Shown: positions 3,481 through 50,429 of the stretch, piece by piece
How the letters are laid out: each line of letters starts with the position of its first letter
How positions within the stretch are numbered: the stretch's first letter is position 1
From: Isoetes taiwanensis
Lineage: Eukaryota; Streptophyta; Lycopodiopsida; Isoetales; Isoetaceae
Length of the DNA: 64,000 nt
Direction of reading: 5' to 3'
Assembly (NCBI GenBank): GCA_021234155.1
Contig: JAJEKV010000031.1
Span: 1,419,614 to 1,483,613 of the forward strand
Program-made: the position numbers and the translations under genes
The notes under the pieces: model-generated
What the model was told of the DNA's origin: nothing
The model's input: the letters and a program-made list of their open reading frames with translations, nothing else
Databases searched by the model: none

Positions 3481-4230
3481 AAACTAGGGGAAGTTCCACA
3501 AAATGTCTAAAATCTAACAAGTTTATCCTCGTAGAGAACCATTTCTTCAGCAGCAAGGAGATCAACATTATTTGCAACCTACAGCTCAACAAAGTGTTGT
3601 TAAATGTATTGCCTTAAGCAAATGGATGTTGTGTTTACCATATCCATATATGTTCTATGGATCAATACTTCCTTTGGAAACTCTGTTTTCTCCCACTTTA
3701 TGCTTATCTGATTTACATCCGATAGTTACTAACTAGCACCTTTGAGCAGTAGACTCTTGAAAATATAGCAATTCACTTGTCGAAGGATTTGTTAAGTGAT
3801 GATTATTATGTCATACTACTATGCACATAATCCCATTTTAGACGATTCCCATATTGTCATCAGCACTCCCATTGTGCTGCATATAAGTGCCAGATACTCT
3901 TAATAGTGTGAGTGCTATTGTAAGTTCCTATTTGAGAAATTCTAACCCAGATCGGGAAGGGTTTCCTATTCTAGATATTCTAACCCAGATTGGGCGGGCA
4001 GAGATAGTGTGAGTGCTATTGTAAGAGCAGCCCTTTTCATTCGCTAATAATAATAATCAAGTGTTAGATTAAGGGAACTTTCAGGATATTCCTGTATCTT
4101 TTTTAGATGAAACTTTCAGGCACGGAACGAACGAAATTGTAGAACACTAGAAATCATTTGAAGATTGCAGAAACCCAAAGCAATTTTTAGTAGCTTAGAT
4201 CAGAATTGGATGAACTAACTCATTAGAACA
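3481..4230. other. Intergenic DNA, no gene recognised
   Basis: A short direct repeat ('gatattctaacccagattggg' type) lies near 3935-4000, and 'agtgtgagtgctattgtaag' occurs twice (about 3905 and 4005). Nothing else identifiable. Confidence 0.35.
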
Positions 4231-5810
4231 TGTGACGTTCCAGCATAATATACGATCCGAATACGTATATTATACTGCCACGTCACACGTACATGTCACG
4301 AATGACATGTACTTGAGAGCCGTAAAGGGTTGCACCTAGGGGGCAAGAGTTGCACCTAGGGGGGCAACCTCGAATGTTGTGCATGTTAAATAAACATACA
4401 CAATTATAAACTCCATGGACCCCATTGCCAAATGGCTAAACCCCATTTGGCCAATGCCTAACCTAACCCTAAGGGTTTCTATATAAGGGCTTTCTCTTAA
4501 ACCCTAAACCTTTCTACTCTTTGCATTTAGGGTTTTCCTTGAGCCCCTTTCCTTCTCTCGCATTTATGGTTCTCTTGAGCCACTCCGGCCAAGCTAAGAC
4601 CCAAATTCGCATTGCCAGGCTCCGAAAAGCCGCCTTTGCACAACAGATCTTCGAGTAGCAGCAGTCTGCAGCAGGATCAGAGGCATGGATGCATTCCGAG
4701 GCTCTGGAACAGGTCAAGTACCAGGTAATTAGTCATTCTGTTGTGCAAAGCCGCCTTGTGGCTAGGCAATAGGCTAGTTCAGCTTTAGAGGCCTTATAGA
4801 TCCCGAGATCATAAGCTCTAACAAAGGAACCTAACTCTGGATGTTTAGGTAGATAGATTAGATGTTATTATTCATTTCAGTTCTGTGATGATGTTAGTAT
4901 TTTACTCTGTGACCTCCATGTATTGGGAAGGGGGGTAGAGGTCTAAAGCCTGTGTAGCAGATAATCCTAGGTAGCCTACTAGTTCCCAATTACTTACGGC
5001 CCGTGCATAGGAGCCCGCCTGGTTGTGGGTGGCGGGACTAGGCCGGTTGACAAGGAGGAACTTGTCCCATCACGGTTTGACCCCTCTGGTGTGTAAAGCC
5101 TACCGGGGGTCTATGTGGGCTAGGCTTAATGGCTTGTCACTGAGTGTGGCAAGGCATGAGCTCGACACCTCTGGGGTGATGCGTCACCTTCCATGAGGTT
5201 CAAGTTGAATACGAGCAGTGGCCCTCTAGCCGCCATGCCTCTGGAGGGGAGGTGACTTCCCTCCTGCCTCATCGGGACTGGGGAGATGCAACCCAGCAGT
5301 AGCCCATTTGGCTATGCACCCGGCAGGCTACGGTGAGGTCCCTATACTTTCCAACCTACTCTGCAAAGTGTGCACGGGAGGGGCGGATGGAATGGACTAC
5401 CCTCAGCCATGTTCTTATGCCAGCCAAATCCATTTGCCATGAATTCTGTCTACAATGACCTCTGGAAGCCCAAGCCGTCAGTTGAACCCCCTTGAATCTG
5501 AGCCCTGGATAGGATTTCCCTTGTTGCTATTGTTCATGTTGATGATGTTGTATATGTGATGATTATAATGTGTTCACCCTTCGAGGTGATTGTATTGATG
5601 TATTGTTATCATGTACTCATGTTTATTCACGCTTCCGCAGCTAGGTCAACCCGAAGGGAGACGGGTGAATGACACATCCACTCTTCCCTTGCTGGCTCAT
5701 TCCACTGGGAGTGGAGTCAGGTGGATGGCCCCTGCCAGTTTGGCTGACAGGGGGAATGCTCCGCCTTCTGATACGATGTGTGCATCGTATAAGAAGTAGG
5801 GTACGTCACA
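4231..5810 (+). repeat. LTR (5' or solo-type) of an LTR retroelement, 1580 bp
   Basis: The left end reads TGTGACGTTC and the right end GTACGTCACA, so the termini are TG...CA with a 7-bp inverted repeat (TGTGACG/CGTCACA). The primer-binding site starts two bases beyond the right end, as expected for a 5' LTR. A TATA box (tctatataag, 4478-4487) and a telo-box AAACCCTAA (4499-4507) lie about 250 bases from the left end and fit a U3 promoter. The long remainder is GC-richer than its surroundings. No second copy of this LTR was found to 64 kb, so the element is either truncated on the right or its partner is too diverged to see. Confidence 0.75.
4478..4507 (+). promoter_or_regulatory. TATA box and telo-box of the LTR promoter
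   Basis: 'tctatataag' is followed within about 20 bases by AAACCCTAA, with further 'aaccctaa' words just upstream. Telo-boxes are known promoter elements of highly expressed plant housekeeping genes. Their role here is inference. Confidence 0.5.
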
Positions 5811-5811
5811 G

Positions 5812-5845
5812 TGGTATCAGAGCATGATCTTGGTAGACCAAGATC
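5812..5845 (+). promoter_or_regulatory. tRNA-iMet primer-binding site with adjacent palindrome
   Basis: TGGTATCAGAGC (5812-5823) is the standard plant retroelement primer-binding site, complementary to the 3' end of initiator Met tRNA. Two bases later a perfect 20-base palindromic hairpin (9-bp stem, 2-base loop AG) occupies 5826-5845. Its place beside the primer-binding site suits an RNA dimerisation or packaging signal, but that is inference. Confidence 0.8.
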
Positions 5846-6529
5846 GAGCATTGACCATTCCCTGTTAGAACTAACAGTAGACTTCAAGTCTTGGGAATAG
5901 CCACCCAAGCATGAACCTCGAAAATTGGATTTTTTTTTTCCAATTTCTAGTGCAGTAAGTAGATAAATGCTAAGTTAGTAGTAAGTTTTAGCAAAAACCC
6001 AACCAAATTTGGTCAAAAAGAGGTGACCCCTCAGAGAGTGCGCCCAGACCAAATCCGCCAGTCTCGGATTTGCTCCTCGCGCAATGTGTGAGTGGTGGAC
6101 CCATGTTGACCTAGATAGATGCACAATTTAGGTAATCTAATAGTGCAGTTCAGCATATCCCTTAGATTTTAACTAGTTTTGCATGTTAGAACACTAATGA
6201 ACTCTTTATAAAGTGAAAATTGGACCCAAAAAGAGGTGACCCCTCACAGAGTGCGCCCAGACTAAATCCGCCATTCTCGGATTGGCCTCTCGCGCACTGT
6301 GTGAGTGGTGGATGCTTTTTGGCCAAATAAACCTAATGTACTCATCATAACTACACTAATATCTTCTAGAATGGCATAATATGGAATTGCAGGTCCAAAC
6401 CCTAAAATCCCCCTACCTATAAGTAGACAATTAGGGTTCCTCATTTACACTTATCTCCTCCAGCAAACAGCTCCTCGTCCCAGAAGACAATTTTTAGGCG
6501 CCAGGAAGCCGATTCCCTTGATTCAAAAC
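5846..6529 (+). other. Leader between primer-binding site and H3-like frame, with an 85-bp direct repeat
   Basis: No coding frame is recognised. An approximately 86-base segment at 6014-6099 ('aaaaagaggtgacccctc' to 'gtgtgagtggtgg') is repeated at 6227-6312 with few changes, offset 213. A possible second core promoter, 'ctataagtag' (6417-6426), lies about 105 bases before the ATG at 6530. The histone-like frame might therefore be driven by its own TATA box as well as by the LTR. Confidence 0.55.
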
Positions 6530-7735
6530 ATGGCCCGAACCAAACAGACCGCCCGTATCGTAGTGCCTGAGGACCATGTCAGTGCCCAGGAGCGAGCAGC
6601 CCAACAGAAGGCGAGACAGGCTCAGGAGCGAGCCAGGCGGGAACAGGGCACATAAGCCAATCCAAATGCCCAAGAGGAGACCCGGGAGCATCAGGAGCGC
6701 CCCCAAAACACTGAGCAGCAAAAGGATCGTGGGAGCCAGAGCGACCCATGCCATGAAGAAGAGGAAGCTGAAGAGGAATTGCAGAGGGAGCTGAAGATGT
6801 TGGAGAAGAAGGAGCGGAAAAGGAAAAGGAAGGAGTCAAGAATACCAAAGAGGAGCGCAGGAGGGAGAAAGAGGAGCGCAGGAAACAGAAGGAGGAGAGA
6901 AGAAAGAAGAAGGAGGAGCACAGGAAACGCAAGGAGGAGCACCAGAAGAAGGAGGACAAGGGGAAAAACCCCGAGTTACCCAAGGAGACCCGACGCAAGC
7001 TGAAGACGACGCCGGCAAAAGGAGTCGTCATACGGGAGCAAGAGCCCGACAAGCCGCCCTCCTCCTCTGACACTAAGTCAGATGAGGAGATAAGGGTCCC
7101 TATTCCAACTGAAGGCTCGGGACCCTCGAATGCAGGTAATGAAGAGGAGGAGCCGACAGCAGAGGTACCCCCGTACCCAAGATGGCCTTCACCCAAGCAC
7201 CCGGCAGCAGATAAGAAGAAGCCGAGGCCTGCGCGGGAGTCATATGTACTCAAGCACGAGCTTGAGTAAAGGAAGAAGCTAAAAGAGTACAACCAGTACA
7301 TGAAGATGTACGAGGAGTACTCGAAATACTACGAGGTGCACAGGGTCGCAATACCATGTGGAAGGAGGCAGGCCTACCAAGAAGAACACTTTGAAGCCGC
7401 CTCCGGAAAGACCAACACCTCCAAAGAAGCCCATTAAGAGAAAGACGGACTCGTACTTCGTCAGAGCTGCTCGGGAGATCCGGCACTTTTGGAGGAGCTA
7501 TGGATTGCTGATCCCAAGAGCCGCTTTCACGAGACTCACTCGCGAAGTTTTGCAGGAATTCGACAGTACCAAGAAAGTAACAGACGACATGTTACTCGCG
7601 CTACAGGAGGCGGCCGAGCAGAAGATTGTCCAGCGTTTTGAAGATTCGGTAGCATGTGCCCTACATGCAAAAAGGGTAACATGCATGCCTAAGGATATGA
7701 GGCTGGCCAAATATATTAAGAACGAAGACTGCTAG
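6530..7735 (+). pseudogene. Histone H3/CENH3-like protein with long charged N-terminal extension, retroelement cargo (decayed copy)
   Basis: The ATG at 6530 opens MARTKQTARIVVPEDHV, whose first nine residues equal the start of histone H3 (Lys4 and Arg8 included; Lys9 is replaced by Ile). A Gln/Arg-rich tail, then about 60 residues of Glu/Lys/Arg repeats typical of a charged helix, then an acidic Pro/Ser-rich linker follow. The last ~95 codons (7440-7732) are a histone fold: REIRHF (alphaN), LLIP...AF.RL.RE (alpha1), ALQEAAE...FED (alpha2), HAKRVTCMPKD...LA..I (loop 2 to alpha3), ending at TAG. REIRHF and LLIP recall plant CENH3, but loop 1 has the H3 length and lacks the CENH3 Trp. Expected length is about 400 residues against 136 for H3. 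Breaks: TAA at 6653 and 7267 (both possible CAA to TAA), a frame change near 6800-6840, and another near 7320-7357. The frame stands where gag would start. I am sure of the H3 fold, fairly sure it is one protein, and less sure of the link to the LTR. Confidence 0.85.
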
Positions 7736-7873
7736 CCTATTGTAGAAAACGTTTGTAAATACAAATTTATGTTTTTGACATGTTAATATGTGAAATCATA
7801 GTTATCTAGGTTGTATTGATAACTTCTGCAATTGGAATCACCAAATTTGGAACAAGACTCAGTGTTTTTTTAC
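7736..7873. other. Short spacer after the H3-like frame
   Basis: AT-rich. It contains no gypsy or copia pol motif, no polypurine tract and no start of a 3' LTR. The right edge of the LTR/H3 unit must lie here or be lost. Confidence 0.4.
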
Positions 7874-8113
7874 CTTCTCTATCAACATAGGGGCATAAGC
7901 ACAATTCAAGTTCCACAACTCACTTGATTCGTTGCTGCAAGTTGAAGATGCAGAACCGGCACTCACAATGTCTTCTAAAAATGATATCCTAGCATAACAT
8001 GAACTCAAACAGACTGATGGTCCATTTTGCATAAGTGTTTGCACAATAACCAGACTCTTCAGTGAAATCACAGGGCTAGAAAGATGCGGCCTCTTTTTCA
8101 AGAAATTGAATAT
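7874..8113 (-). pseudogene. Exon-like fragment, possible ENTH/ANTH-type helical domain
   Basis: On the minus strand an 80-codon, phase 0-0 exon is bounded by an acceptor (ttatattcag, ending at 8114) and a donor (gtaaaa, starting at 7873). The core reads KRPHLSSPVISLKSLVIVQT and continues with LMQNGPSV. This resembles the helix 'LK.L.V.Q.LLQNGPS' of ENTH/ANTH-like domains in clathrin-assembly proteins and related kinases. The match is by eye and weak. More exon-like frames lie upstream on the same strand. Confidence 0.35.
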
Positions 8114-9355
8114 CTGAATATAACAGGCCACGTATTCATAGCTAGTTTTTTGAAGAAAAATTTGGGTAAGCATGCAATTCACATACCGTCAATGTACTAC
8201 CACTATTATGGTTCCAGAAGGACAAGACAAGATGACGTAGATGCTTAGGCTAGGGTGGACACACTTCCTTGTGAGTGGCCTTTGCTAACAATGTTCTCTT
8301 CCTATACCAATCCTTCAGACTTGGTAGACCTACTCCAAAATGTGAAACTATGTCTTCATATTTAGGATATTCAGCATCCTTTCCATAAAACTTTCTCCTT
8401 ATTTCCTTGCAAAACTCATTAGTATCTGAATTTGAATGGAGGAGAGAAACTGGATCCCAAGCATTTCCTCATTTTCCATGCCCTGTAATTGTATAATGGC
8501 ACTTCTCTTTTAACAAACTTGTCCATCCTTCTTTGTCTTCCTCCTCACAATTATTTTTGTTATATGAGCCATTATCCATAGGCCTTCTATAACCATGCGC
8601 ACATGGACGGGCTATTAGTGAGGATCAAATCAAAGAAAATTATGTAACCAAATCAAAGAACGTTGTAAAATGTTGTGGTGCACAGACATGCATTGATTCA
8701 AACAACTGCAGCTCAAGGCCAACTCTGTCTATAGATGCACATGATTAGAATGATTTGGGGCCTCAATATACTAACTTTAGACTCAATAGAAGGAAAAAGA
8801 AAAGAAAAAGAAAACAAATGAAAGCTCTCAATATGAATAATCTTACTAAAATGCAAAAGCTAACCTTTGACATGAAGCATAGAAATCTAGCACACATAAG
8901 GAAGCTATATCCACCATGGCGCCATTTTCTTTCCTAATAAATAAATTTTTGAGCCCTACTTTTAGAATCCCTTTCATCACAATAGTATCCTTCCCAGCAG
9001 AGTTGCTCATGGTGGAAAGATAAATGAGATGTAATCCGGGACGAATAAGTTCATAGTTGGTAATAGATGCTCACAAGTTTTGTGCAGTAGCAGGCTTCAA
9101 CATTATGATGAGTGTCAATTTCTTGTTCTAAACATTTCAAATTCAAATAAGGTTTATGGCTTACCAATCTTTCCTGTATCCCACATTGTAATGCGAGGGC
9201 AGTTGCTACTTCACCAACCGGGAAAGTGAGCATTGAGCCTCCATATTCAACTGGCAACAATGGCGCGGCGGTGCCGGGCTAGCGGTTTACTTACCTGGCC
9301 CTAAAGAACACCGGGCGACCGCAATTTCTGAAATTGATAAGTTTGGAGCGGCCGC
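8114..9355 (-). other. Minus-strand exon-like remnants, unidentified
   Basis: A minus-strand frame of about 75 codons spans roughly 8245-8478 and contains KFYGKDAEYPKYEDIVSHFG. It is preceded by a TGA and another frame reading KEGWTSLLKEKCHYT. A second open frame lies at 9051-9260. Their composition looks coding, and they could belong to one broken gene together with the exon at 7874-8113. I cannot name it. No plus-strand gene is seen. Confidence 0.25.
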
Positions 9356-9420
9356 ATATACTTAGAATATTCTGGAAACCCACATGAGCAAGGGTTTGCC
9401 CCCCTAGGGACAACCCAAAA
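9356..9420. repeat. Dispersed repeat C, copy 1
   Basis: 'atacttagaatattctgg' followed by 'acccacatgagcaagggttt' matches 42809-42868 in the same orientation, with a few substitutions. A GC-rich stretch sits just before it at 9265-9350. Confidence 0.5.
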
Positions 9421-9512
9421 ACCCTCTTACAAACATATTTTTGATTAAATCTTTTTCCCTTCAACCAAAATTTTAGAAAAAGTATTTAACAACATAATCA
9501 ATTTTTATCTAC

Positions 9513-9526
9513 AAAAAGTTCCTAAA
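9513..9526. repeat. Target-site duplication of the L1 element, left copy
   Basis: AAAAAGTTCCTAAA is repeated exactly at 11962-11975, just after the poly-A tail of the LINE. Confidence 0.8.
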
Positions 9527-11961
9527 TGTTTTCCAGGAATATTGGGATTGGTTGGGTTGCGATCTTTATAATGCTTTCTGTGAGTTTCGTAGGTTCAGAA
9601 GTTTAGATAAGATCCGTAATACTGGCTGTATTTCTCTTATTCCCAAGTGTAAAGAGTCAAGATCGATATCCGACCGCTCTATCACATTATTGTCTTCCGT
9701 GTATAAAATATTTGCGAAGGCCCTTGCAGACAAAGTGCGTGATGTCTTGGCTATATCAATCTCTCCTACTCAATCTGGATTCTTGCCAAAGAGGAGCATT
9801 TTAGACAATGTTGTCAGCCGCTATGAGGGTATGTATTGGGCCGATTGAAAGGTCGGGCCAGATAGTCTATCTTAAATTAGATTTTGCCAAAGCATATGAT
9901 GGTGTACATTGGGAATTTTTTGGAAAAAGCCTCTTAACATTGGGCTTTGGTCAGTCAGTTCACCAATGATGTTATGAAGCTCCATATCTCTAAATCACGG
10001 CTTCATCAGGTTGTTGTTTGGGGAACCCTCCAATTGTTTTTTCAGGTTTGGTGTTCGCCAAGGATGCCCATTAGCTCCACTTTTTGTTCACAATAGTAGC
10101 TGAGGTCCTATCACATCTATTTGCTAAGGCCGCGCGGTGATGGGATAGTGCGGGGGTTGAGTATGGAGGATGGTTCATAGGAGATTTGTAACCAAGATGT
10201 CTTGACACGCGTTCCTCTTTCTTGTTGTTTGTCACGGACAATCTTCGAATGCAAAGCTTCTTCTTGATACTTTCTCTTTAGCATCTGGAGTTCTTGTTGG
10301 TTGGCCAAAGTGTTCTGCGTTATGGACGCTTGATGGAGTTATGCCTCCTTGTGTTGCGGAGTTTCCTTGGAAGGTGCTTCCTCATGGGAAGGCTACTAAA
10401 CTTCTTGGTATTCCTGTGGGCATTCATATTTCTACCTTTGATGCTTGGGATATTATCATAGAAGGGTTGCGTAAGCATTTATTTTGGTGGAATACTGCTA
10501 AGCTCTCTCTGCCAGCGCGAATAACGGTTGCTAAGCATGTTTTAAGTAATTCCCATGTCTATATGGCCTCTGCCCTTCTGGCTTCTCAGTCAAAATTTCA
10601 GGTGATTGTTACTATTATCCGCAATTTTATTTGAGGTGGGACTGAGGAGCATGCTGTGGTCAAGGTTGCATGGTCCAAATGCACCAAGCCGAAATTTGCA
10701 GGTGGTTTGGGTATGACAGACTTCCATTTGCAGAGTAAGATTCTAATTTCTAAATTCATTTGGAGGATCCTCAAGGATATGGTTGACTTACCTGGAGTGC
10801 GGTTGGTGAGACAGTCACTTGCACATTGTGTTCCTTTTGGGAAAGCTTCATTAAAACCGCTTCTTTCTTGGAGTCTCTTTTATCAGCTATGCCCTTTTCC
10901 TAATGCTCCTTTTTTGAAAGGCTTGCTGGAGTCTTGGGAGACAGTACGGACCCTATTTCGTATTGATCTTGTTGCATGTCATCAGTTGAGTGCCCCTTGT
11001 TGGTGGATATCTGTGGAAAATAATCTTCCACTTTGTGCTTCGGTTCATCCATTAACTCAACGGCGCTGGAGGTTAGCAGGAATCTTGACAGTTGCGGCAT
11101 GGTATGATTCTGGCCAGTTAGCGACATAGCAAATCTTTCAAACAAAATTCTCATTGTCTCGATGGGACAGACCTATTTGACAAAAGATTGCTAGTACTCT
11201 GCCATTGGTTGCTCCAAAGGATATTGAAGGGTGCATGTGGGTTTCCCACCAGAGTGTTCACGAGCATAGGCTTGTGAACTCTATGTATAGGCTGCTTGTC
11301 AATAGTGATATCATTCCGCCATCATTCACCTCCTAATTGGAGAAGTATGTGGACTTGGGCTTGGGATAAACTACTCCATCCTAAGGTGGCGGTGCTTTGG
11401 TGGCAGATTCTTCACAGATGCCCTCGTGTGAACGTGCTTGTCCACGGATTTGATCCTCGAGTGTCAGCACTCTGCCCATTGTGCAAGCAAAGGGACGAGA
11501 CCATTGAGCATTGTTTCTTTTTATGTGTTCATCTCCAGCCTATTTGGTCTTGGCTGCTTTCTCTTTTTCATGTGACATTGACAAGTCAGCAAGTGCTTCT
11601 GGCTATTTATCCGGATGCTTGGAATAAGTTGCGGAGCCAAGCATTTCATTTAGCATCAAGATGGTTGTTGTGGTCCATCTGGAAGCGCAGAAGACTGTGC
11701 ATCTTTCAGGGTTTGGATATTCCTCCTGCAGTTGTCCTCCAGGATGCACAATCTAGAATCGCTAAGGCATACCATTGTTCTTCGCTTGCTCCTGCCAAGC
11801 GACAGTTGATACTTGAGTCCTATTTGAGTGTGCTGTCTTATGCATAGGCTGGTGGTTCTACTCAGTGGATCATGATTATCCTCTGAGACTTTATTCCTGC
11901 CTCTGCATTTGTATTTTGCTTTTGGCTTGGAGTTTCAATAAAGTTTGTCGTTCTTAAAAAA
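9527..11961 (+). mobile_element. 5'-truncated L1-type LINE (reverse transcriptase to zf-RVT)
   Basis: The element starts inside the reverse transcriptase domain: CISLIPKC, then SVYKIFAKALADKVRDVL, SPTQSGFLPKRSILDNV and LKLDFAKAYDGVHWEF. A VRQGCPLAPL-type motif appears near 10050-10085. The catalytic YxDD segment is not recognisable at about 10100-10200. Thumb and connection sequence follows (10341-11129). The C-terminal zf-RVT domain at 11296-11847 is intact for 183 codons and includes CPLCKQRDETIEHCFFLC. The 3' end is a poly-A run after an 'aataaagttt' signal. Flanking 14-bp duplications prove insertion by target-primed reverse transcription. Frameshifts and stops make it inactive. Confidence 0.88.
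11296..11847 (+). pseudogene. zf-RVT C-terminal domain of the L1 ORF2
   Basis: This 183-codon open stretch is the best-preserved part of the L1. It shows HPKVAVLWWQILHRCPR followed by the zinc-knuckle-like CPLCKQRDETIEHCFFLC and ends at TAG. Plant L1 ORF2 proteins carry this domain after the reverse transcriptase. The frame upstream is broken between 11129 and 11296. Confidence 0.85.
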
Positions 11962-17746: not shown

Positions 17747-18990
17747 TCAGGTACTTATGGTTCTCTCCCATGCTCTCACCTCCATTGGTTTTTGCCCTGT
17801 TTCGAGGACCATGATTGTCAGTGGCGTATTTGTCCTTACTTTAAATTCCTGTCTGTGCCACTGCCTAAGGATTCCTTCCTGTTTTTCCCATTTTCTGTCT
17901 GTTAGGCCTGGCCCCCAGGCTTCTGCCCCATATAATTGAGTGGTGGCTACTACTGCACTGAATAAGTAACATTTGATGTCCCAGTCAATTATTCTGCTTC
18001 TGTTGCAGAAATTCTTCATATTGAAATAACTCCCTGTAGCTGATTGGAACCTGGTGTCTGCCCCCTTGGCCCACTTCCCTGTGCCATGCGCATCGTACCC
18101 TATATATCTGTATTCCGTTGCTTCCTCTATTTCTTTTTCCTTATATCTGAAGAGTCTATACCTGTTCTTATGTCCAAAGATGACTATCTTAGTTTTTGCT
18201 AAATTTGCAGTCAGCCCTGTTTCTTCACAGAATTGTTCTAGAATTTTTAGCAGTCTGTGCATCCCCTTGTTTTTTGTGGCCATCATACCTAGATCATAAG
18301 CATATAGCATAATTGGTAACTTCGTGTCTCCTAACGTAGGGGCGTATTCGTCCCCTTGCTGTTCTGCTATGTATTCCTGCAAAGCGTCTATGTATATTCC
18401 AAACAGAGTTGGGGATAACGGGCAACCCTGTTTTACGCCTGTGTCACAGTTTATTGGTTGTCCTTCTTGTTCTATCTTGGCATATTCCCTATGGTATAGT
18501 CTTGCAATCGACCCTACCATATTTCTCGGAGCTTGCATGTCCATCAATCTTTGTAGTAGCTTCTCTCTCGGGATTGTGTCGAATGCTTTCCTGAAATCTA
18601 CAAAGCAACAGATGATCTTTCTTCCCTGTGCCTTGTTCTGTTCTATTAATATTCGAAGAGTTACTAGGTGGTCGGTGGTTGAGTGTTCCGGCCTGAATCC
18701 TGCTTGCCCTTGTGCTCTCATGTTTCCTTCTTCTGCCATTTCTTTAATTTGTTATCCAGTGCTTTTCCAATCCATTTCGTGAAAATGGAACTCACCATTA
18801 TTGTCCTATAGTTTCCTGGATCCTGCCTGCTTCCTGCCTTATGCAGAGGTATGACTCTATTGTACGTCCACTGTCTGAAGCCCTGTTGTGTATGATGCCG
18901 TTGAAAATGTGCGTGACGGACTGTCGCCAATTTACGTCTCGGCCACACTTGATAATTCCACCGGGTAGACCATATAGATTCAATGCTTTA
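17747..18990 (-). pseudogene. LINE reverse transcriptase, downstream copy
   Basis: The frame 18739-17747 (330 codons) covers fingers to thumb: QAGFRPEHSTTDHLVTLRIL, CCFVDFRKAFDTIPREKLLQ, GVKQGCPLSPTLFGIYID and MLYAYDLGMMATKNKG, then connection sequence to GAEAWGPGL. The catalytic motif expected as YADD reads YAYD, so one catalytic Asp is replaced by Tyr. The 5' part (19001-18718) is in other frames. It is nearly identical over its 5' two-thirds to the second copy at 19205-20420. Confidence 0.85.
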
Positions 18991-20420
18991 TGGTTAGCCA
19001 TCCCCGTTTAGGGCTATCATTACCTCTACCATGTTGAAGCATGGTTTGTCCGAATCCTCGCAACATTGGTATTGATACGAGGAGGTGCCCCCTGTCTTTA
19101 TACAATTTCTCCGTGTTTTTCTCCCATCCTCATTGTTCCAATACCATCATGTTCACTCCTTGTTTTCATATTATCCCTCCCCTTCGTTTCCAATAATTGG
19201 ATCGACATTTGATGTCCCACCAATTATTCTACTTCACATGCAGAAATTCTTCATATTGAAATAACTCCCTCAGAGCTGATTGGAACACGGTGTCACGTCC
19301 CCTTGGCCCACTTCCACGTGCCATCGCATCGTACCCTATATATCTCAGATTCCGCTTTTTCCTCTATTTCTTTTTCCTTATATCTGGAAGAGTCTATACC
19401 GTTCTTATGTCCAAAGATGACTATCTTAGTTTTTTGCTAAATTTGCAAGTCATACTGCTTCTTCCACACAGAATTGTTCTAGAATTTTTAGCAGTCTGTG
19501 CATCCCCTTGTTTTTTGTGGCCATCATACCTAGATCATAAGCATATAGCATAATTGGTAACTTCGTGTCTCCTAACGTAGGGGCGTATTCGTCCCCTTGC
19601 TGTTCTGCTATGTATTCCTGCAAAGCGTCTATGTATATTCCAAACAGAGTTGGGGATAACGGGCAACCCTGTTTTACGCCTGTGTCACAGTTTATTGGTT
19701 GTCCTTCTTGTTCTATCTTGGCATATTCCCTATGGTATAGTCTTGCAATCGACCCTACCATATTTCTCGGAGCTTGCATGTCCATCAATCTTTGTAGTAG
19801 CTTCTCTCTCGATTGTGTCAATGCTTTCCAAATCTACAAAGCAACAGATGATCTTTCTTCCCTGTGCCTTGTTCTGTTCTATTAATATTCGAAGAGTTAC
19901 TAGGTGGTCGGTGGTTGAGTGTTCCGGCCCGAATCCTGCTTGCCCTTGTGCTCTCATGTTTCCTTCTTCTGCCATTTCTTTAATTTGTTATCCAGTGCTT
20001 TTCCAATCCATTTCGTGAAAATGGAACTCACCATTATTGTCCTATAGTTTCACGGATCCTCGCCGCTTCACGCCTTTATGCGAGGTATGACTCTATATTA
20101 TGCGTCCACCGTCTGGAAGCCCCGTGTTGTATGATGCCGTTGAAAATGTCTGTGACCTGTCTGCCAATTTCTGTCTCAGCACACTTCAGTAATTCCACGG
20201 GTAGACCATATAGATTCGGTGCTTTATGGTTAGCCATCCTGTTTAGGGCTATCATTACCTCTACCATGTTGAAGCATGGTTTGTCCGAATCCTGCAACAT
20301 TGGTATTGATACAGGAGGTGCCCCTGTCTTATACAATTTCTCCAGGTATTTCTCCCATCCTGCTGTTCCAATACCATCATGTTCACTCCTTGTTTTCATA
20401 TTATCCCCTCCCTTCTGTTT
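17969..20420. repeat. Tandem duplication of about 1.22 kb within the LINE
   Basis: 17969-19190 and 19205-20420 are copies, offset 1236 at the left edge. Long stretches (for example 18240-18560 and 19500-19800) are identical. The edges facing each other (18880-19200 and 19200-19460) differ by many small indels centred on CTG or CAG words. The pattern suits an assembly or consensus artefact at least as well as a true duplication. Confidence 0.85.
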
Positions 20421-20440
20421 AAATCCCCTCCAAAATCTTC
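19450..20440 (-). pseudogene. LINE reverse transcriptase, upstream copy
   Basis: This repeats the fingers and palm of the copy at 17747-18990, including FRKAFDTI (here broken near 19810-19835), GVKQGCPLSPTLFGIYIDAL and the same YAYD variant. It stops at about 19450, where the sequence deteriorates into indels. The stretch 20468-20076 upstream carries NMVEVMIALNRMANHKAPNL and YGLPVELLK, the region just before the reverse transcriptase in such LINEs. Confidence 0.8.
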
Positions 20441-27219: not shown

Positions 27220-28745
27220 ATTTGATGATACTATAGGATGTATAGGCACAACATGCCCAACTTTCTAGTTAAATTTGCATACGGTTTCTGCCATGTTTGA
27301 TAGATCCCACTTTATAATAGCCATATAGAATTTTAAGTTAACAAGATATTGCTTTAGCAACATTTAAATTAGCCAGCTCAATAGTAGTCAGGGGCACAAC
27401 ATTAGTAGCACAGTGCCATTTTACACCATCCATCTTTCTTTCTGTCTTTTCTTTTTTGTTTTGGTTTTTTGTATAATAACTTGCTGACAGCTCTAAGAAT
27501 AGAATAGAATAGAATAGAGTAAAATGCTCCTTTGCATTTTAGTCATGCATGTTTCATTGTATGCACATGTCGAGTGGATGCATTTAGTTATACAAAAACT
27601 TCAAGCCTTAAATATCTCTAATAGTTCAAGCATGCCGCATTATATGTGCATGTTCAGTGGATATATTTTAGTTATAAACAAACTTCAAGCCTTAAAAATA
27701 TTTGTAGTCGTCAAGCATGCCTCGCTGTAAGTGGATGTATTTTATTTAATACACAAACTTCAAGCCTTAAATAATCTTGTAGTGCAATTCTAATAATTGT
27801 ATAATATGGCATTGCTTTGTACTATTGCAACCAACAATATTAAAATTAGCCAGCAACATAGTAGGAGAGTGCCATTTTACACAGTCCATCTTGGGATTAT
27901 TTTTTGATAGAATATAAGAGCTTTTATTGTCCACGGAGACTAATCGACCTATGGGACCTAACAAAATGGCGCAACAAACTTATTGCTGATGTAATATATC
28001 CAAGAGTTTTTTTCATGGCATTATAGATCTATTGCGTAAAGATACTGCAAATGCTGCAATAAGAGTTCCTTTGCATTTTAGTCATGCATGCCCCGTTGTA
28101 TATGCAAGTAGAGTGGATGCATTTAGTCATAGAAAAACTTCAAGCCTTAAATATTTCGAATAGTTCAAGCATGCCTCATTATATGGGCATGTACAAGTGA
28201 ATATATTTTAGTTATAAACAAACTTCAAGACGTAAAAATATATCTACTAGTCAAGCATGCCTCATTGTATGCGCAAGTAGAGTGGACGTGTCTTATTTAA
28301 TACACAAACTTCAAGCCTAAAATATTGTAGTGCATTTTTACCAATTGTATAATATGACATTGCTTTATACTATTGCAACCAACAATGTTAAAAGTAACCA
28401 GCTCAATAGTAGTTAGAGGTACAACATTAGTAGCATAATGCCATTTTACACAGCCCATTTTGGAATTATTCTCTTATGTAAAATAACTTGTTGGAAGCTC
28501 CAAGACTTATTTTGATGGCATTATTGATCTAGAGACTATAAAATGGTTGTTCTACTGCATGAAGATGCTGTAAAAAGTGTTCCTTTGCATTGTAATCAAG
28601 CATGCCGCATTATATGCACAAATAGAGTGGATGTATTTTAGTTATATACAATCTTCAAGCCTTATAAGACAACAAGGGTTGCATTGTCTTCATGCTGAAT
28701 GTACCAATTTCATTCATGGTAGAGTATGCATAGTCAACGGTTGGA
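27220..28745. repeat. Long direct repeat D, copy 1 (left of the P450)
   Basis: Key words are 'ttgatgatactataggatgta', 'gatagatcccactt', 'aacaagatattgctttagc' and repeated units of about 95 bases around 'caagcatgcctcattatatg...acttcaagccttaaa'. The same series occurs in the same order at 32966-33980. Within this copy the 95-base unit recurs near 27530-27780, 28075-28330 and 28590-28660. No coding capacity is recognised. Confidence 0.75.
27490..27520. repeat. (AATAG)n short tract
   Basis: Four to five units, the same pentanucleotide as the LINE tail. Confidence 0.75.
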
Positions 28746-28912: not shown

Positions 28913-29071
28913 TCATAATGCGTCAAAAAGATATCGGAATAGAAGATGTTAGATGGCATATGAGGATTTGGTCAACTGATAGACGAGTTAATAATTGGGC
29001 TACAGAGTTATGCTTCAGAATAGGGGAAAACATAAGACGGACTGTGTTGTTCATGCATAGAAGAACTAAAC

Positions 29072-30680
29072 ATGGGTACACACTTAAACGGTGATATAGC
29101 TCTTCCTTTTATTCTTCTTTCTCTAGCCTTGCTTTTTCTTTCAATCAAATTATTTGCTCCCAAAAGCAATCAGAATCTTCCACCAGGTCCTCCAGGATTG
29201 CCCATAATAGGTCACTTGCACTTGCTGAGCAAATTTATTTATCGTGATTTGGATCGTATTTCCAAAAAATATGGGCCAGTTGTGCTGCTGAGAATGGGGG
29301 TGCACTCAACGTTGGTGGTTTCTTCGCCAGAGATGGCGAAAGAATTTCTAAAGGGGAATGACCATAATTTTCCATCAAGACCCAGTACTTTGGGTACAAG
29401 GGAGTTGGGCTATGATCAGAAGAGCATGATCTTGGCAAGCTATGGTGAATATTGGAAGCGAATGAGAAGATTTCTGAGCTTAGAGCTCCTCTCTTCCCAA
29501 AAGGTGGAGGAAAGCCGTGCTATCAGAGCAGCCGCCATATCTGATATGATCAAAATTATCGAATCTGAAGGAAGGGCTGGCAAAGACATTAATATGTCTA
29601 ACATGATAAACATTCTGAATTTTAATTTTATCAGCATGATGATCTTGGGAAAGGATTTGCCGAAAGAGAAAGCCCTCCAGATTAGAAATATCATTACTGA
29701 ATCAGTACTTTTATATGGAACTCTTGTTCCTGGAGATTTCATTCCTCTACTTTGGTGGACCGATATATTTCAAGGATACAAGTCCAAAATGAGGAAGGTA
29801 CATGTAAAGATGGATCAATTTCTAAGTAACATACTTGAGGAGCACCGGCTCCAAAATACAGAGACAAATAAGATGCAACATAGTAGTAATTTTATTGATG
29901 CAGTAACCCGCCATAATCTGGAACATGATGAGGTCAAAGCCATTATTCAGGTAATAAGCTAAGATTGGCAAAAGAGTACCATCAATTTTTATATAAAATC
30001 TGGTAGAATATCCTGGTTAACATGATTTTAATGCTAATTTAAAAAGCATATTCTTCTAATGCTAATGATTGATTCTTGTTGAGGATGTTTTGGGCAGAAT
30101 GAATCAACTTCAAGCACTCTACAATGGGCACTTTCGTGAGCTACTTCTGAATCCATCTATATTAAAGAGAGCACAAGAAGAAATAGATAAAACAATAGGC
30201 ATAAATGGGGTGCTAGATGAATCACCATAAATGATCCGAAATATCCGAAAAGCAATTGTGAAGGAGACATTGAGACTACATCCAACAAGCCACTTTTACT
30301 ACCACATGTGTCCTGTAGAAGATTGTATTGTGGTGGCTACTACATTCCCAAGGGAACTAGGTTGATGGTGAATGTTTGGGCAATAGGGCGAGATCCACAA
30401 GTATGGGAAAGGCCATTTGGAGTTTAATCCCGAAAGGTTTATGGAGAGCACCATCGATGTTAAAGGTCGATTTTAGCTTGCTACCATTTGGCTCGAGTGC
30501 GTATGACTGCCCGGTAGTGTTTTGGCTATGCGAACAATGGAAATTACTCTTGCACATCTGCTCCATGCCTTTGATTGGGATCTGCCAAGAAATAGCAAGC
30601 TTGATATGGAGGTAAATGGTGGGCAGGTTTTGAGCAGGGCGAATCCTCTCTTTGCAGTTGCCTCTCCCAGGCATCGTTAA
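29072..30680 (+). CDS. Cytochrome P450, CYP71 clan (two exons; exon 2 with frameshifts)
   Basis: Exon 1 (29072-29950) is open for 293 codons: an N-terminal membrane anchor ([18 protein letters not shown]), the Pro-rich hinge [17 protein letters not shown], then typical CYP71-clan words ([30 protein letters not shown]). A 133-bp intron (gtaata...gag) sits at the usual clan position before the I-helix. Exon 2 (30084-30680) shows WALSELLLNP across a break, KETLR (ExxR), [25 protein letters not shown] (PERF) and the haem Cys in FGS....CP. It ends [13 protein letters not shown] and stop. The breaks are one-base indels at CTG, CCGG or GG sites, so the gene may be intact in the plant. Product: ER haem monooxygenase, substrate unknown. 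Confidence 0.85.
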
Positions 30681-37109: not shown

Positions 37110-38400
37110 CCGACAACTCGATTTGTTTGTAGTTGATTCGGAGCCGAAAGATCGATAGTAAAGTCAATCGAGATGCTTAGAAATTTGTCTACCACAAACT
37201 CAAGCAAATTCAAGTTGGAAATGGAGCTCTAACCGAGATTGGGGTAAAGGATTATTACAACTTGAAGATCCGGAGGGGAACATTGTAAATATAGAAGATG
37301 TGTTATGTGTGCCATTACTATTAAGAATCTGATTTCTGTGAGTCAGCTTGTTGACTTGGGGTACAAAATTACTTTTGACTCCAAAGAATGTAATGTTCTT
37401 ATGAATGGAATTCTGAAATTTCGAGCAAGGAGGATGGGGAATTTATTTCAAATGCATGGTCTTATGGCAAACAATGTAAACCTAATTCAAGAGGCAGATT
37501 TGGAATTATGGCATAAATGACACTAGCACATACACATTATCACAATCTAAGAACTTTACAAAAGCTTGGAGTTATAAACTGCAGTGACTCAGGAAAGGAA
37601 GATCCATTATGTGAAGGGTGTGCAGTTGGGAAATTGAATAGACTACCTTTCAAAAGAAGGGAATCAAAGACAACACAAGTTTTAGAACTTATTCATACGT
37701 AGACCTATGTGGCCCATTGAATGTAAGAAGTAGGACAAATCATAGATATTTCATTACATTCATTGATGACTATAGCGTAAAAATGCACAATCTATTGTTT
37801 GACAAGAAAATCTCAAGCTTTACAAGCATTCAAACAATTTGTGACTGAGGTTGAAAGAGAAACCGGTCTAAAAGTCAAATGTGTTAGATCTGACCGTAGG
37901 AGGAGAATACACTGTCACAAAAGTTCAGAAGTTTTGCATTAATCATGGCATCAAAAGACAACTAACTTGGTGATTTAGTCCTCAACAAAATGGGATTTCT
38001 GAAAGGAAAAATAGGACAATTTTGGATGCAGTAAGGGCAATGCTTAAACAAAGTGGTTTACCAAGAAACTTATGGGAGGAGGCTTTGAGAACTGCAATCC
38101 GAATTCAAAACATGTTACCATCTGCAAGTATAAAAGGTAAGATACCTAATTTAGTTTGGAATACAAATGAAAGATTAAATTTTGACTGGCTCAAAACATA
38201 TGGTTGTTTATGTTATGTACACAAGCCAATAGAATTAAGAAAGAAGTTGGATGATAAAGCAGAGATAGGTTTTTTGGTGGGATATGATACTGAATCCAAA
38301 GGCTACAGAATTTTTATGCCAGAAAAGCAAACCATTATTATTAGCAGAGACGTCTTATTTAATGAAAAAGTTGTCTATAAAGATAGATACAAAAAGGGAG
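37110..38400 (+). pseudogene. Copia protease trace and integrase
   Basis: A VDSGA-like protease word is suggested at 37130-37150 in a frame-broken stretch. The pre-integrase domain follows (LISVSQLVDLGYKITFDSKE, 37330), then HNLRTLQKLGVI, CEGCAVGKLNRLPF and FIDDY. After that come ETGLKVKCVRSD..GEY and QQNGISERKNRTILDAVRAM, with the catalytic Glu in the last. The stretch 38022-38390 is open and ends with the usual LVGYDTESKGYRIF and IISRDVLFNE. Confidence 0.85.
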
Positions 38401-40250
38401 TCAAAATCCAGGAGCAAAATTCTGATGTAAATGAGAATAAGATAGATCTGGATAATGATGAAGATAATGAAAAGAATGATGTCTCTGACACTTGTTCAGA
38501 CAAGGAGCATATAAGTGCAGAAAATGGGGAAAAGGAAACTACTGTGGTACCAGCCGAGAATATACCTGAGGCAGAAAAAGTTCAAGAAAATATTGGAAGG
38601 AAAAGAAGAACTCAAGCTCAAAGATTAATTGAGGAGGCAGGGTTAGGAGAAATGCAATATGGAAGAACTGAAGGAGGTAGAAGCAGACGAATTGAAAGGA
38701 AAAAGGAGGAAGAAGAAATACCTTATGAACAAATTATGACTATTCTAGAAAATGAGCTAATACCAGAAACTTTTGAAGAAGTGCAAAATAGTGTGAATAA
38801 AATTGAATGGTTAAAAGCAATGGAAGATGAGTTGACATCTTTTGAAGATACAGAAACCTATGATCTTGTCAAATCAGAAAAAGGGAAAAATATTATTGGA
38901 AGCAAGTGGGTCTTCAGAATAAAACAAAATCCTGATGGTACAAGAAAAATACAAAGCTAGGTTAGTAGCACAAGGATTCACTCAAAAAGGGAAGAGATTA
39001 TGAGGAGACATACTCTCCAATTGTCAAACTTACTAGCATTAGAATCCTTTTGGCAATGGCAAATGCTCTAGGTTTGGAACTACATCACATGGATGTGAAA
39101 ATCGCTTAAATGCTATTCTTGAAGAAGAAGCATACATGAAACAGCCACTGGATTTGAAAAGGATAAAACATGGTCCGGAAATTAAACGAGGCGCCTATGG
39201 TCTAAAAACAATCCCCAAGAGAATGGTATTTATGCATGGACCATTTCTTGAAGGAACAAGGGTTTGAAAAATTGAAAAATGATGGAAACCGTATGCATTC
39301 GAAAAGGAAGATAATTTTGCATCATTGCACTTTATGTGGATGATTGCATTATGGTAGCAAACTCTATGAGGCTATTGGATGAATGCAAAATATTCTAAAA
39401 TCACGTTTTCAAATGACCGATCTTGGTGAGTTGAAGAAGTTTCTAGGAATAGATGTGATCAGAAACAAACAAGAAAAAGACATTAAAGTTGAGCCAATGT
39501 AAACATGTGGAAAACATCTTTGGAGATTTAATCTGGAAAATGCAAATGCAGAGAAAATTCCAATGCTACCGAGGCCAAAGTTGATCGACAATCAAGAGCA
39601 AACCGACAAAGAAATAGCGGATATGGAATTCATTCCTTATAGGGCATTAGTTGGTGCTTTATTATTATACTTGGCAAATAGTACCAGCCTGATATAGCAT
39701 ATGCAATGAATATATTAAGTAGAAAATGTCATAATCCCACTAAGGAACACCGAAGCCGGAAAACGTGCTCAAATACTTGAAAGGTACTTTCGGAATCATG
39801 GAATTTGTTATACCTCGACAAATTTGAAATTATTTGCATATAGTGATGCATTTGGGAGGTGACTTGGAATGTAGAAAGTCCACTTCAAAGTTATGCAATT
39901 TTTCCGGCTGGAGGAGTCGTTACTTGGAGATGCAAAAACAGTTGAAACCATAGCCATGAGTTCTCTGAAGCGAGAATATGCAAATGCCCTCTCTAGTAGC
40001 CAAGGAGATTGCTTGGTTAAAAAGGCTATTAAATGAATTAAACGTGAATGTGTTGAAGCCAAAAATCTTCACAGATAGTCGAGTACATTGCAATAGTGAA
40101 AACCCAGTTGCACATGAGAGAACAAAGCATATTGAGCTCAACATCCACTTTATCGGAGATTTAAGTAAAAAGAAGGTTATTCAAATGAGGTATATAAAGA
40201 TCCGGAGATCAAACGGTGATATCTTAACTAAAAGCTCGCGGCGAAAATAA
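38400..40250 (+). pseudogene. Copia reverse transcriptase and RNase H
   Basis: An acidic linker (38400-38780) leads to VNKIEWLKAMEDELTSFEDT, NIIGSKWVFRIKQNPDGTRK and LVAQGFTQK. LELHHMDVK, YMKQP.GFEK, YGLKQSPR-like and LYVDDCIM (the YVDD catalytic box, about 39335) then appear in shifting frames. FQMTDLGELKKFLGIDVI and RNase H words (TDSRVHCNSENPVAHERTKH, NIHFIGDL, IKIRRSNGDILTKS) follow to about 40250. Most breaks are one-base indels. Confidence 0.85.
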
Positions 40251-47752: not shown

Positions 47753-50213
47753 ATGCCTACTAGAGAGTGGTATTCGAACTTAAGTGAAGAAGGTAGGGAG
47801 AGAATACGTCGAAGAGAAAGAGAGCGTTATGCAGCTCGATCCGAAGAAGAACGTGAAAGAGCATTACGAAGAAGAAGAGAACGCTATGCATATAGACGAG
47901 AGTTGTCTAGGCAACGAATTGATAGGAGCACAGAGTCTACTTGCTTAGATACACCAATAATAGATGCAAATATGACTGACGTAAATAACTTGCAATCACA
48001 AGTTGCTGGCCCAAGCAAATTACCTGATCAAGCAAGCCCTACACCGGGAGGAGTCGGGAGGAATCTTCCAAGATCGGCGAAAGCTGGGTGTTTCACCGCC
48101 CGGCAAAGACAAACCGCCTCGGTGGAACAACCCACAACACCGTATAGCCCCAAAGAAAGCGTGAGAGATTAGTGGATGTTGCAAGGAAACATCGACATAG
48201 TTTATGTTCAAGCTGCATCCATGGTAGACATGTGCTCGCTTGACCAAATGATCCGCAGCACAAGTAGTTTACCCATTGGCGCCTTTCGAATATAATGATA
48301 TTCTTGGTTCCATAACGGAATCGAATGAAAGAGTTGAGAGCTCAGATCAACGAGATCTAACACATTGGCGTGCATGTGCACGACGTATGAACTTGGCAAT
48401 GAATAGAACTTACGTAATGTGCACATGGAATAAGAGGTGCACATATTGTCAAATCTTGCTGCTTAACATTGAGGAAAATGGTTTTTGTTGTAATAATGGA
48501 AGATGGTTACTTCCACCGTTACCACCTTTGCCTACAGTATTAATTAATTTGTACAACACACCTGGTTTTGGTCAAGGTAGCGGCTGACGAATAAACAAGT
48601 TGTTCTGCTTTTGATTATACTTGGTGTTGATGGCAGCTTTGTGAACTTAGATTTTCCATCCTCCGTTGCGATCACGGGTCGTACATATCATAGATTACTC
48701 CCTACAGCAGATGTTGGGAATCCTATACATTGGTATGTCTATGATGAATCGCAACGTTACATACATGCACGTAATCAAAGAGTGCCATTCCAATGGATTG
48801 CGACAGTTGGATCGGCTCTTAACCAATTAAACCCATTCATACGACACCTTCGAACTATGGGAAGTATGGATATGCCATCGGCATACATAACAATAGAAGG
48901 AGCTGTTGCTATTAATGAAATTGCATCTATTGCCGAGGTCAACAATACAATGAACATCCGACCTCGCATTCTTGGATTCTCGGGTTGAAACCAAGGAGAA
49001 CCGACCTTCATAAATATCCTTGATCCCATGTATGAACCACTTCAATACCCTTTGTTCTTTCCCCATGGCACATTAGGATGGGGGCTTGGAAATGAGCACA
49101 ACTTGACGCAATTGCAATGGTATAGGACAAGGTTATTACATGAAGATCGGTTCTTGCAGTTAGGTCGACTCTGCGGAGAATACCTAGTAGATATGTATTC
49201 GAGAGTTGAGGATGCGCGTCTGAATTATTTTAAAACAACGGCGTTCCGCAATAGAAGAATACAATATGATGAGGATTATTCCGAACACGATAACGATGAT
49301 GAAAATGACATTATCTTACCTGCATCATTCTTGGGTTGTAAAAGATGGTGTTCGGTACAAGTAGCAGACGCACTAGCACTCTCAAGGGCAAAAGGTCGTC
49401 CTACCTTATTTATTACGATGACGACAAACACAGATTGGCCCGAGATACGAACTGCACTTAGGCCAGGACAAAATGCATCCGATGCTCCTATGATCATAGT
49501 TCGGTGTTTCCACGGTAGACTACAACGACTAAAAGAATTGCTACGAAAGTTCTTTCAACGTATATCATATATGATTCCAGAAACGAGGATTGCCCCATGC
49601 TCACCTTGTGCTACGCACAGAACCTGATATACCGATCGATTGTATCGATGAGATCATTTCTGCTGAGCTGCCATCGGATCCGGTGCTTCGAGCACAAGTA
49701 CAAAAGTTCATGATTCATAGGCACACAGAGAGATGTTCTTCTAACAATTCTTCCTGCTGTTACAACTTCCCAAAGCCCGTGAATCCCACGACATATCTTG
49801 ATTCGAGAGGTTATGTACAATATAGAAGAAGAAGTGCAGATGATATGTGGGTGGTGCCGTACAATGCGTTCTTGCTTCACGAACTAGATTGCCATATCAC
49901 CGTGGACGTTGCATCTACTGTGCACGTCTTTTCCTATCTCTATGGTTATATATATAAAGGGTTCGATAGTGCCAACGTTCGAGTAGCACAAGATAATGAG
50001 TCTGCAGGTCAATCTTCATCAATAAATAGTCAACCAACTCAACACATGTCGTGTACCTCGTTAGCAAATGGAGGGCAAGGAATAGAAACGTCTAAACATT
50101 CTTTCGAAAATATATCATCGGATAAACCTACTAAACCAAATGCTACGAACGAAATACGGGACTACGTTAATGGATCGGTATCATCCGCGCCATGGAGGCA
50201 TCGTGGAGAATAA
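47753..50213 (+). pseudogene. Helitron Rep (N-terminal and HUH nuclease part)
   Basis: It begins with the Arg/Glu/Tyr repeat typical of many plant Helitron proteins (RRERERYAARSEEERERALR). Then come QRYIHARNQRVPFQWIATVG-like words, PLQYPLFFPHGTLGWG and LQLGRLCGEYLVDMYSRVED. The Rep core follows: GRPTLFITMTTNTDWPEI, FHGRLQRLKELLRKFF, PHAHLVLRTEPD (HUH motif H-A-H) and YLYGYIYKGFD with the Tyr pair. Frames change near 48172, 48590, 48990 and 49600. Function in active copies: nicking and rolling-circle transfer of single-stranded DNA. Confidence 0.88.
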
Positions 50214-50429
50214 TGTCCTATCATATAACACATAAATCGCCATCCGCCGATGTCTCCCACTTTGCCCTACGGTTACCAAATACAAACTCGCTCTAGGATC
50301 ACTATTTTTCACGGCCACTAGATTCCGAAGTTCGATTCTCTCACGATATCCAATATCATGAACAAGACACATTAATTCCATATAATGGGACATCTATCTT
50401 GCAACATGGTGAGTATCTAGAGCAAGAGC

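Follow-up and report, generated by a model that had tools for sequence, protein, structure and literature searches.

A decayed, H3-like ORF1 of a Ty3/gypsy LTR retrotransposon in the genome of Isoetes taiwanensis

The H3-like frame at positions 6530–7735 of a 64,000-nucleotide stretch of Isoetes taiwanensis DNA (hereafter the window) is what remains of one copy, decayed and truncated at its 3′ end, of the ORF1 that a high-copy Ty3/gypsy LTR retrotransposon carries. ORF1 almost certainly encodes a diverged histone H3, and in the best-preserved clade of copies it is under purifying selection about like that on gag. An initial annotation of the window had taken the frame for an H3/CENH3-like protein with an N-terminal extension. 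The H3-type fold and tail stand, but the frame is the 5′ extra ORF of a Ty3/gypsy element rather than a plant gene; that annotation had overlooked an LTR and a primer site just ahead of the frame, as well as the fact that the sequence is repetitive.

The window copy and its element

The element copy is laid out in the window as follows.

4231–5810 (+): 5′ LTR (TGTGACG...CGTCACA, 1,580 bp); an end-to-end alignment with the LTR at locus L034 gives 79.6%
5812–5823 (+): primer binding site TGGTATCAGAGC, recognised by its sequence just 3′ of the LTR
6014–6111 (+): leader repeat copy 1, a direct repeat and predicted RNA hairpin (fold z-score −3.1)
6227–6324 (+): leader repeat copy 2, a predicted RNA hairpin with 88% identity to copy 1 (fold z-score −4.8)
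6530–6556 (+): ORF1 start, M plus H3 tail residues A1–R8 (MARTKQTAR), read from the sequence; kept in relatives with synonymous codon changes
6557–6559 (+): codon for H3 residue 9, ATC, Ile here; K, I, M or V in relatives
6560–7439 (+): charged part of ORF1 (Glu/Lys/Arg) with the Pro-rich linker; the homologous stretch is open in 16 relatives
7440–7735 (+): H3 histone fold of ORF1 and stop codon, identified by Pfam, PDB search, AlphaFold2 and Foldseek
7736–7869 (+): element DNA beyond ORF1; 7869 is the furthest reach of homology to fetched relatives

The LTR start at 4231 is common to many of the loci fetched from the host genome. The primer site TGGTATCAGAGC, which we take to be of the plant initiator-tRNA type, is matched exactly where the LTR ends in 13 of the 20 loci, as well as in the window copy. 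The ORF1 frame of the window is broken by stops at 6653–6655 and 7267–7269 and by two frame changes between its parts, and neither ORF2, nor this element's gag-pol, nor a second (3′) LTR was found in the 64-kb window. The leader hairpins are a candidate packaging or dimerisation signal of the element; pairs of ~100-nt repeats resembling them also occur in L038, L039, L046 and L048. A ~300-nt direct repeat with ~200-nt spacing lies just past ORF1 in L036, L041, L042, L044, L045, L047 and L050 (about 4020–4570 in ORF1 orientation), and the window copy ends about where this repeat of the relatives begins.

The complete arrangement is seen in the relatives. Fifty fetched loci represent 46 distinct ones (L016, L018, L020 and L029 duplicate L045, L046, L047 and L043, respectively), and 9.9 kb was read around each of 20 loci picked for long open frames. 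The element measures ~13 kb and carries, in order, an LTR, the H3-like ORF1, an orphan ORF2, gag, protease, reverse transcriptase (RT) and RNase H. Paired LTRs, TG...CA ends and a primer binding site, all hallmarks of Ty3/gypsy elements, were found in relatives, the window copy having one LTR. Specifically, a genome search with the LTR of L034 as query shows two same-strand LTRs of 98% identity for this copy, with starts 11.75 kb apart, and the element spans 13,331 bp (C1048:2332418-2345748). Behind ORF1, Pfam identifies Retrotrans_gag (E = 6.7e-17) and RVP_2 (E = 3.4e-9) in L034/L037, RVT_1 (E = 8.8e-41) in L037 and RT_RNaseH (E = 4.2e-34) in L034, and gag has a weak match to a CCHC zinc knuckle, below the cut-off. 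Matches to gag-pol were obtained in 16 of the 20 loci, and matches to ORF2 with a bit score above 60 in all 20.

ORF2 reaches 542 codons (L031 3586–5211 on the minus strand; L034 4866–6341 on the plus strand). It has no Pfam match and no PDB match, and none of 7,998 scored candidates among 5.8 billion proteins is a relative at E ≤ 0.01. Its pN/pS of 0.10–0.49 (six loci) makes ORF2 look constrained. In L041, the LTR and internal ends are repeated with 97% identity at 1–2001 and 7902–9901, and an identical purine-rich sequence precedes both LTRs; this is a tandem LTR-internal-LTR arrangement.

The element family looks large. When the host genome was queried with the ORF1 fold at the protein level, 150 places were scored among 9,346 first-look candidates, each with an E-value of 1.5e-59 or better and 73–100% identity. 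A search with the L034 LTR gave 40 scored places out of 9,206; the candidate numbers are not confirmed copies. Chromodomains are also plentiful (150 scored of 8,792 candidates), a genome-wide count that is not specific to this element.

The window contains sequences of other kinds as well. A reverse transcriptase frame, probably of LINE type, lies at 17747–20424 (RVT_1, E = 8.1e-28) with a stretch duplicated at 1,230–1,241-bp spacing, and a zf-RVT fragment at 11278–11847 (E = 8.4e-10) is probably from a LINE-type element. A cytochrome P450 open frame of 308 codons occupies 29036–29962 (E = 1.5e-31), with a diverged repeat array ahead of it at 27528–28667. At 37974–38960 lies an LTR-retrotransposon polyprotein fragment with an SH3_retrovirus domain (E = 5.1e-25), presumably of the Ty1/copia type, and at 48989–51501 a Helitron remnant with Helitron_like_N (E = 5.7e-23) and PIF1 helicase (E = 3.4e-20) in separate open frames.

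The ORF1 protein and the selection on it

The histone fold that the initial annotation had placed at 7440–7732 is borne out by four methods. The window frame 7304–7732 (+) matches the Pfam Histone domain with E = 3.8e-20 (72.8 bits; cut-off 26.4) and H3.3 in the PDB with E = 4.4e-21. AlphaFold2 models the fold as four helices in H3 order with a mean pLDDT of 83.9 from a 64-row alignment, and with a pLDDT of 55 from a 4-row alignment instead. All 50 matches listed by Foldseek against the PDB are H3 chains of nucleosomes or histone octamers, with 41–48% identity.

The reading of the first nine codons as an H3 N-terminus is likewise upheld. A degenerate MARTKQTAR-x-V pattern, which fixes residue 10 as V, has 183 exact matches in the whole genome and none in the reversed control; this control and the E-values above rule out a chance motif match. 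Furthermore, the proposal that one protein once spanned the whole frame is supported by the intact relatives in the genome: in 16 of the 46 distinct loci, tail and fold lie in a single open frame of 379–421 amino acids from the ATG, running from the MARTKQTAR-type start through the end of the fold, and an open frame from the start is absent in the other 30. The long charged insert is also present in these relatives; in L034 it measures ~290 residues, and residues 91–150 are 78% charged. A search of proteins with the ORF1 linker plus fold returned three matches out of 139 candidates, all of them H3 domains and none with the ORF1 linker.

The tip of the tail is kept closely. A1–R8 is exact in 12 of the 16 open copies and K4 is present in all 16, and across these copies codons 1–8 show many synonymous differences and few amino-acid changes. 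Beyond residue 8, the H3 tail (S10, K14 onward) is replaced, with K9 retained in one subfamily only. Of the 46 loci, 8 are unreadable at residue 9, and the other 38 all have K, I, M or V there (I 17, M 10, K 8, V 3). Among the 183 pattern matches, the 50 listed with their letters, partly the same copies, give K 20, M 14, I 12 and V 4. These states follow subfamily, the best-preserved subfamily being K9. Judged by eye on an unrooted DNA tree without an outgroup, they form a linear series K-I-M-V that needs about three changes; with so few apparent changes at residue 9, its mostly aliphatic states are weak evidence.

Between H3 residues 47 and 130 of the fold, all 16 open copies share 26 positions with H3, among them F67, R69, L70, E97, F104, D106, C110, H113, K115, R116, M120, D123 and L126, many of which we take to be H3–H3′ and loop-2 DNA contacts. 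Across the same copies, loop 1 keeps none of its eight H3 residues and the N-terminal helix 3 of 11. The DNA-entry segment (residues 40–46, including RPGTV at 42–46) is replaced, R63 and F84 are altered, and the net charge of the fold is 0 to +6, versus +8 for H3 and +6 and +7 for two plant CENH3 sequences. With loop 1 and the N-terminal helix so diverged, segment 40–46 gone, R63 and F84 changed and the fold less basic, stable nucleosomes are not assured.

The selection tests cover those 16 of the 46 loci whose frame is open from its MARTKQTAR-type start, 7 of them in the best-preserved clade. Across the 21 pairs that these 7 copies form, pooled pN/pS comes to 0.08 for residues 1–20, 0.19 for the charged part, 0.12 for the linker and 0.10 for the fold. 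Between clades, where silent sites are saturated, the corresponding values are 0.22–0.38, 0.43–0.45, 0.23–0.25 and 0.17, and constraint looks weaker. For the whole of ORF1, pN/pS is 0.10–0.23 (5 copies, 10 pairs), compared with 0.06–0.27 for gag (4 loci, 6 pairs). Choosing long open frames filters stops and not missense changes, so that an idle gene would show missense ratios near 1 in spite of this choice; from the low ratios of ORF1 we conclude that the element has used it as a working gene. In L034, L035 and L037, ORF1 pS is 0.26–0.34 and exceeds the LTR divergence of the same three pairs (4.7–8.5%), perhaps reflecting loss of methylated CpG in a GC-rich gene.

Origin and possible roles of ORF1

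Both protein trees join the element folds in one clade with full support on a long stem (100/100 and a stem of 1.19 in the AU-tested tree). In the latter tree, the nearest row to this clade is an H3-like protein, P0007 (89/91). In this phylogeny with H3 and CENH3, of the kind that the initial annotation had suggested, a grouping with four plant CENH3 sequences is not rejected (p-AU 0.267). The AU-tested tree holds 11 of the 16 open copies and 21 of 123 proteins from homology searches, the other protein tree listed proteins of 100–200 amino acids only, and alignment A2 63 of 120 listed proteins, hand-picked mostly for length. By identity, the fold is 41–47% like H3 and 38–50% like two plant CENH3 sequences.

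Individual residues show a mixed picture. Eight columns consistently discriminate two H3 rows from the majority of four plant CENH3 rows; at five of these, one at the ragged C-terminus, the element has the CENH3 state, at none the H3 state and at three neither. Specifically, it sides with CENH3 at four core positions at which all four plant CENH3 stand against the two H3 rows (R63P, L65A, Q85T and V89L). The CENH3-like motifs pointed out in the initial annotation, EIRHF (there as REIRHF) and LLIP, recur, and loop 1 is confirmed to have the H3 length and to lack the CENH3 Trp; tail and loop length are H3-like. A single-copy host relative outside any element could be the source of ORF1.

The retained tail tip and fold suggest that the element makes a chromatin protein of its own, perhaps to resist silencing. 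Our best explanation of the whole, which we advance tentatively, is that the window holds a decayed ORF1 copy and that the H3 encoded by the element acts on chromatin and blunts H3K9-linked silencing; anti-silencing through an H3 mimic is, taken by itself, possible rather than probable. The ORF1 protein would be made from element RNA and then enter the nucleus, where it would pair with H4, alone or in H3–H4 deposition complexes, and present its partial H3 tail. The A1–R8 segment of H3 is the part gripped by many H3 readers and writers. Enzymes and readers of this kind would read the ORF1 tail, which would be cut off from normal H3 modification past residue 8. With I, M or V at residue 9, as in most subfamilies, H3K9 methyltransferases could bind but not methylate, as with H3K9M in fission yeast. 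H3K9-linked silencing would then weaken at the element's own copies, or the element would keep these copies open.

This route has precedents in earlier studies: H3K9M traps the H3K9 methyltransferase Clr4 (PMC5030085), the geminivirus protein TrAP inhibits the H3K9 methyltransferase KYP (PMC4606454), and VANC proteins are transposon-encoded and anti-silencing (PMC10398659, PMC5735166). Trapping through residue 9 cannot serve every subfamily, because the best-preserved one keeps K9. A bolder form, somewhat unlikely in our estimate, makes the core histone of the element a chromatin weapon that enters or competes with host H3–H4 assembly; the non-methylatable residue 9 (I, M or V) of most subfamilies would be a natural counterpart of H3K9M, working against the H3K9 silencing that the element faces, and the K9 subfamily, later or ancestral, would play the same game differently.

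Two other roles are serious competitors of this mechanism. The protein might act inside the replication cycle, as a charged histone-fold protein that binds DNA or RNA, condensing element RNA or cDNA or guiding nuclear entry, with the H3 tail used for import or chaperone binding. We consider this unlikely: the long Lys/Arg/Glu stretch, a histone fold with loop-2 K115, R116 and M120 kept in all 16 open copies, and a position upstream of gag with constraint about equal to it all fit, but the retention of tail residues 1–8 is left unexplained, and gag, from its sub-threshold knuckle match, seems already to have a CCHC zinc knuckle. Alternatively, ORF1 might steer integration or the fate of copies: resembling H3, the protein would associate with H3–H4 chaperones, with replication forks or with centromeric chromatin and anchor the integration complex there. 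The presumed H3–H3′ contact residues are kept, and the four CENH3-like core substitutions point the same way; on the other side, loop 1, the mark of CENH3, has the H3 length and no Trp, and the Isoetes taiwanensis genome paper gives, in the text available, a homogeneous repeat distribution (PMC8566536). We consider a role in integration slightly less likely still.

The remaining explanations give ORF1 no role in the element. Captured gene fragments are abundant in plant elements according to the available text of a review (PMC13317346), and most copies lack an open frame from the start, as would suit a host H3 gene fragment captured by the element and carried unused. Such a passenger was rejected on constraint, as pN/pS in the best-preserved clade is about 0.1–0.2, like gag, and tail residues are kept while codons change; we regard it as very improbable, unless the choice of 16 open copies with long frames misleads. 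A host plant H3/CENH3 variant gene, present in the window as a pseudogene, would agree with the mixed H3/CENH3 motifs and with the unrejected plant CENH3 grouping. At the window locus, a host gene is ruled out by the LTR, the primer site and the gag-pol context, which flank the same frame in relatives, and the copies are dispersed and number at least 150, so that this reading is scarcely credible.

Known systems and meaning

Ty3/gypsy elements that carry extra ORFs are a known kind; an extra ORF that is a histone H3 we have not seen described. Plant Ty3/gypsy elements with extra ORFs (PMC6317226) share with the Isoetes element the LTRs, the primer binding site, the gag-protease-RT-RNase H set and, on the 5′ side of gag, an additional ORF. 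Among the eORF domains that survey names are plant mobile domain, Transposase_28 and Athila ORF-1, whereas in Isoetes the additional ORF encodes a histone H3 that retains the tail tip and has been under selection. By title or abstract start, none of the literature matches listed concerns a retroelement encoding histone H3, a scope that leaves most subscription journals, preprints and supplements outside. In a term search, the word 'histone' was absent from the main texts of the Isoetes sinensis genome paper (PMC10541799) and of a 2026 review on gene capture by plant elements (PMC13317346).

Compared with H3 and CENH3 themselves, ORF1 is alike in its fold, in tail residues 1–8, in the presumed H3–H3′ and loop-2 contacts and, for plant CENH3, in the four core substitutions, and it differs in its identity of 38–50%, the replaced tail past residue 8, the missing RPGTV, the ~290-residue charged insert and its residence in an element. 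VANC of the VANDAL transposons, which to our knowledge is not a histone, is similarly a transposon-encoded protein against silencing, a role that for ORF1 is proposed; VANC is described as sequence-specific. Histones of large DNA viruses (PMC11222145, PMC9396995) are, in the text available, also core-histone folds encoded by selfish elements, but they belong to DNA viruses and are fused repeats in one case, whereas ORF1 is a single H3 in a retroelement. The H3K9M mutant histone (PMC5030085) shares its M at residue 9 with one element subfamily. As described there, it is otherwise a normal H3, whereas the element H3 is diverged and carries I, M or V, with K in the best-preserved subfamily.

The element has a consequence for annotation. 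According to the available text of the Isoetes taiwanensis genome paper, BLASTx against plant proteins was used to find and remove such repeats from the repeat library (PMC8566536), and an element bearing an H3 could drop out at this step or be annotated as histone genes.

Many plant LTR retrotransposons have extra ORFs, for which a large survey leaves any role open in the text available (PMC6317226). In this element, such an ORF can be recognised as a core histone; its constraint is close to that of gag and it occurs in divergent subfamilies, so that a function is directly testable. If the ORF1 protein enters chromatin, the element has made the substrate of silencing one of its own genes.
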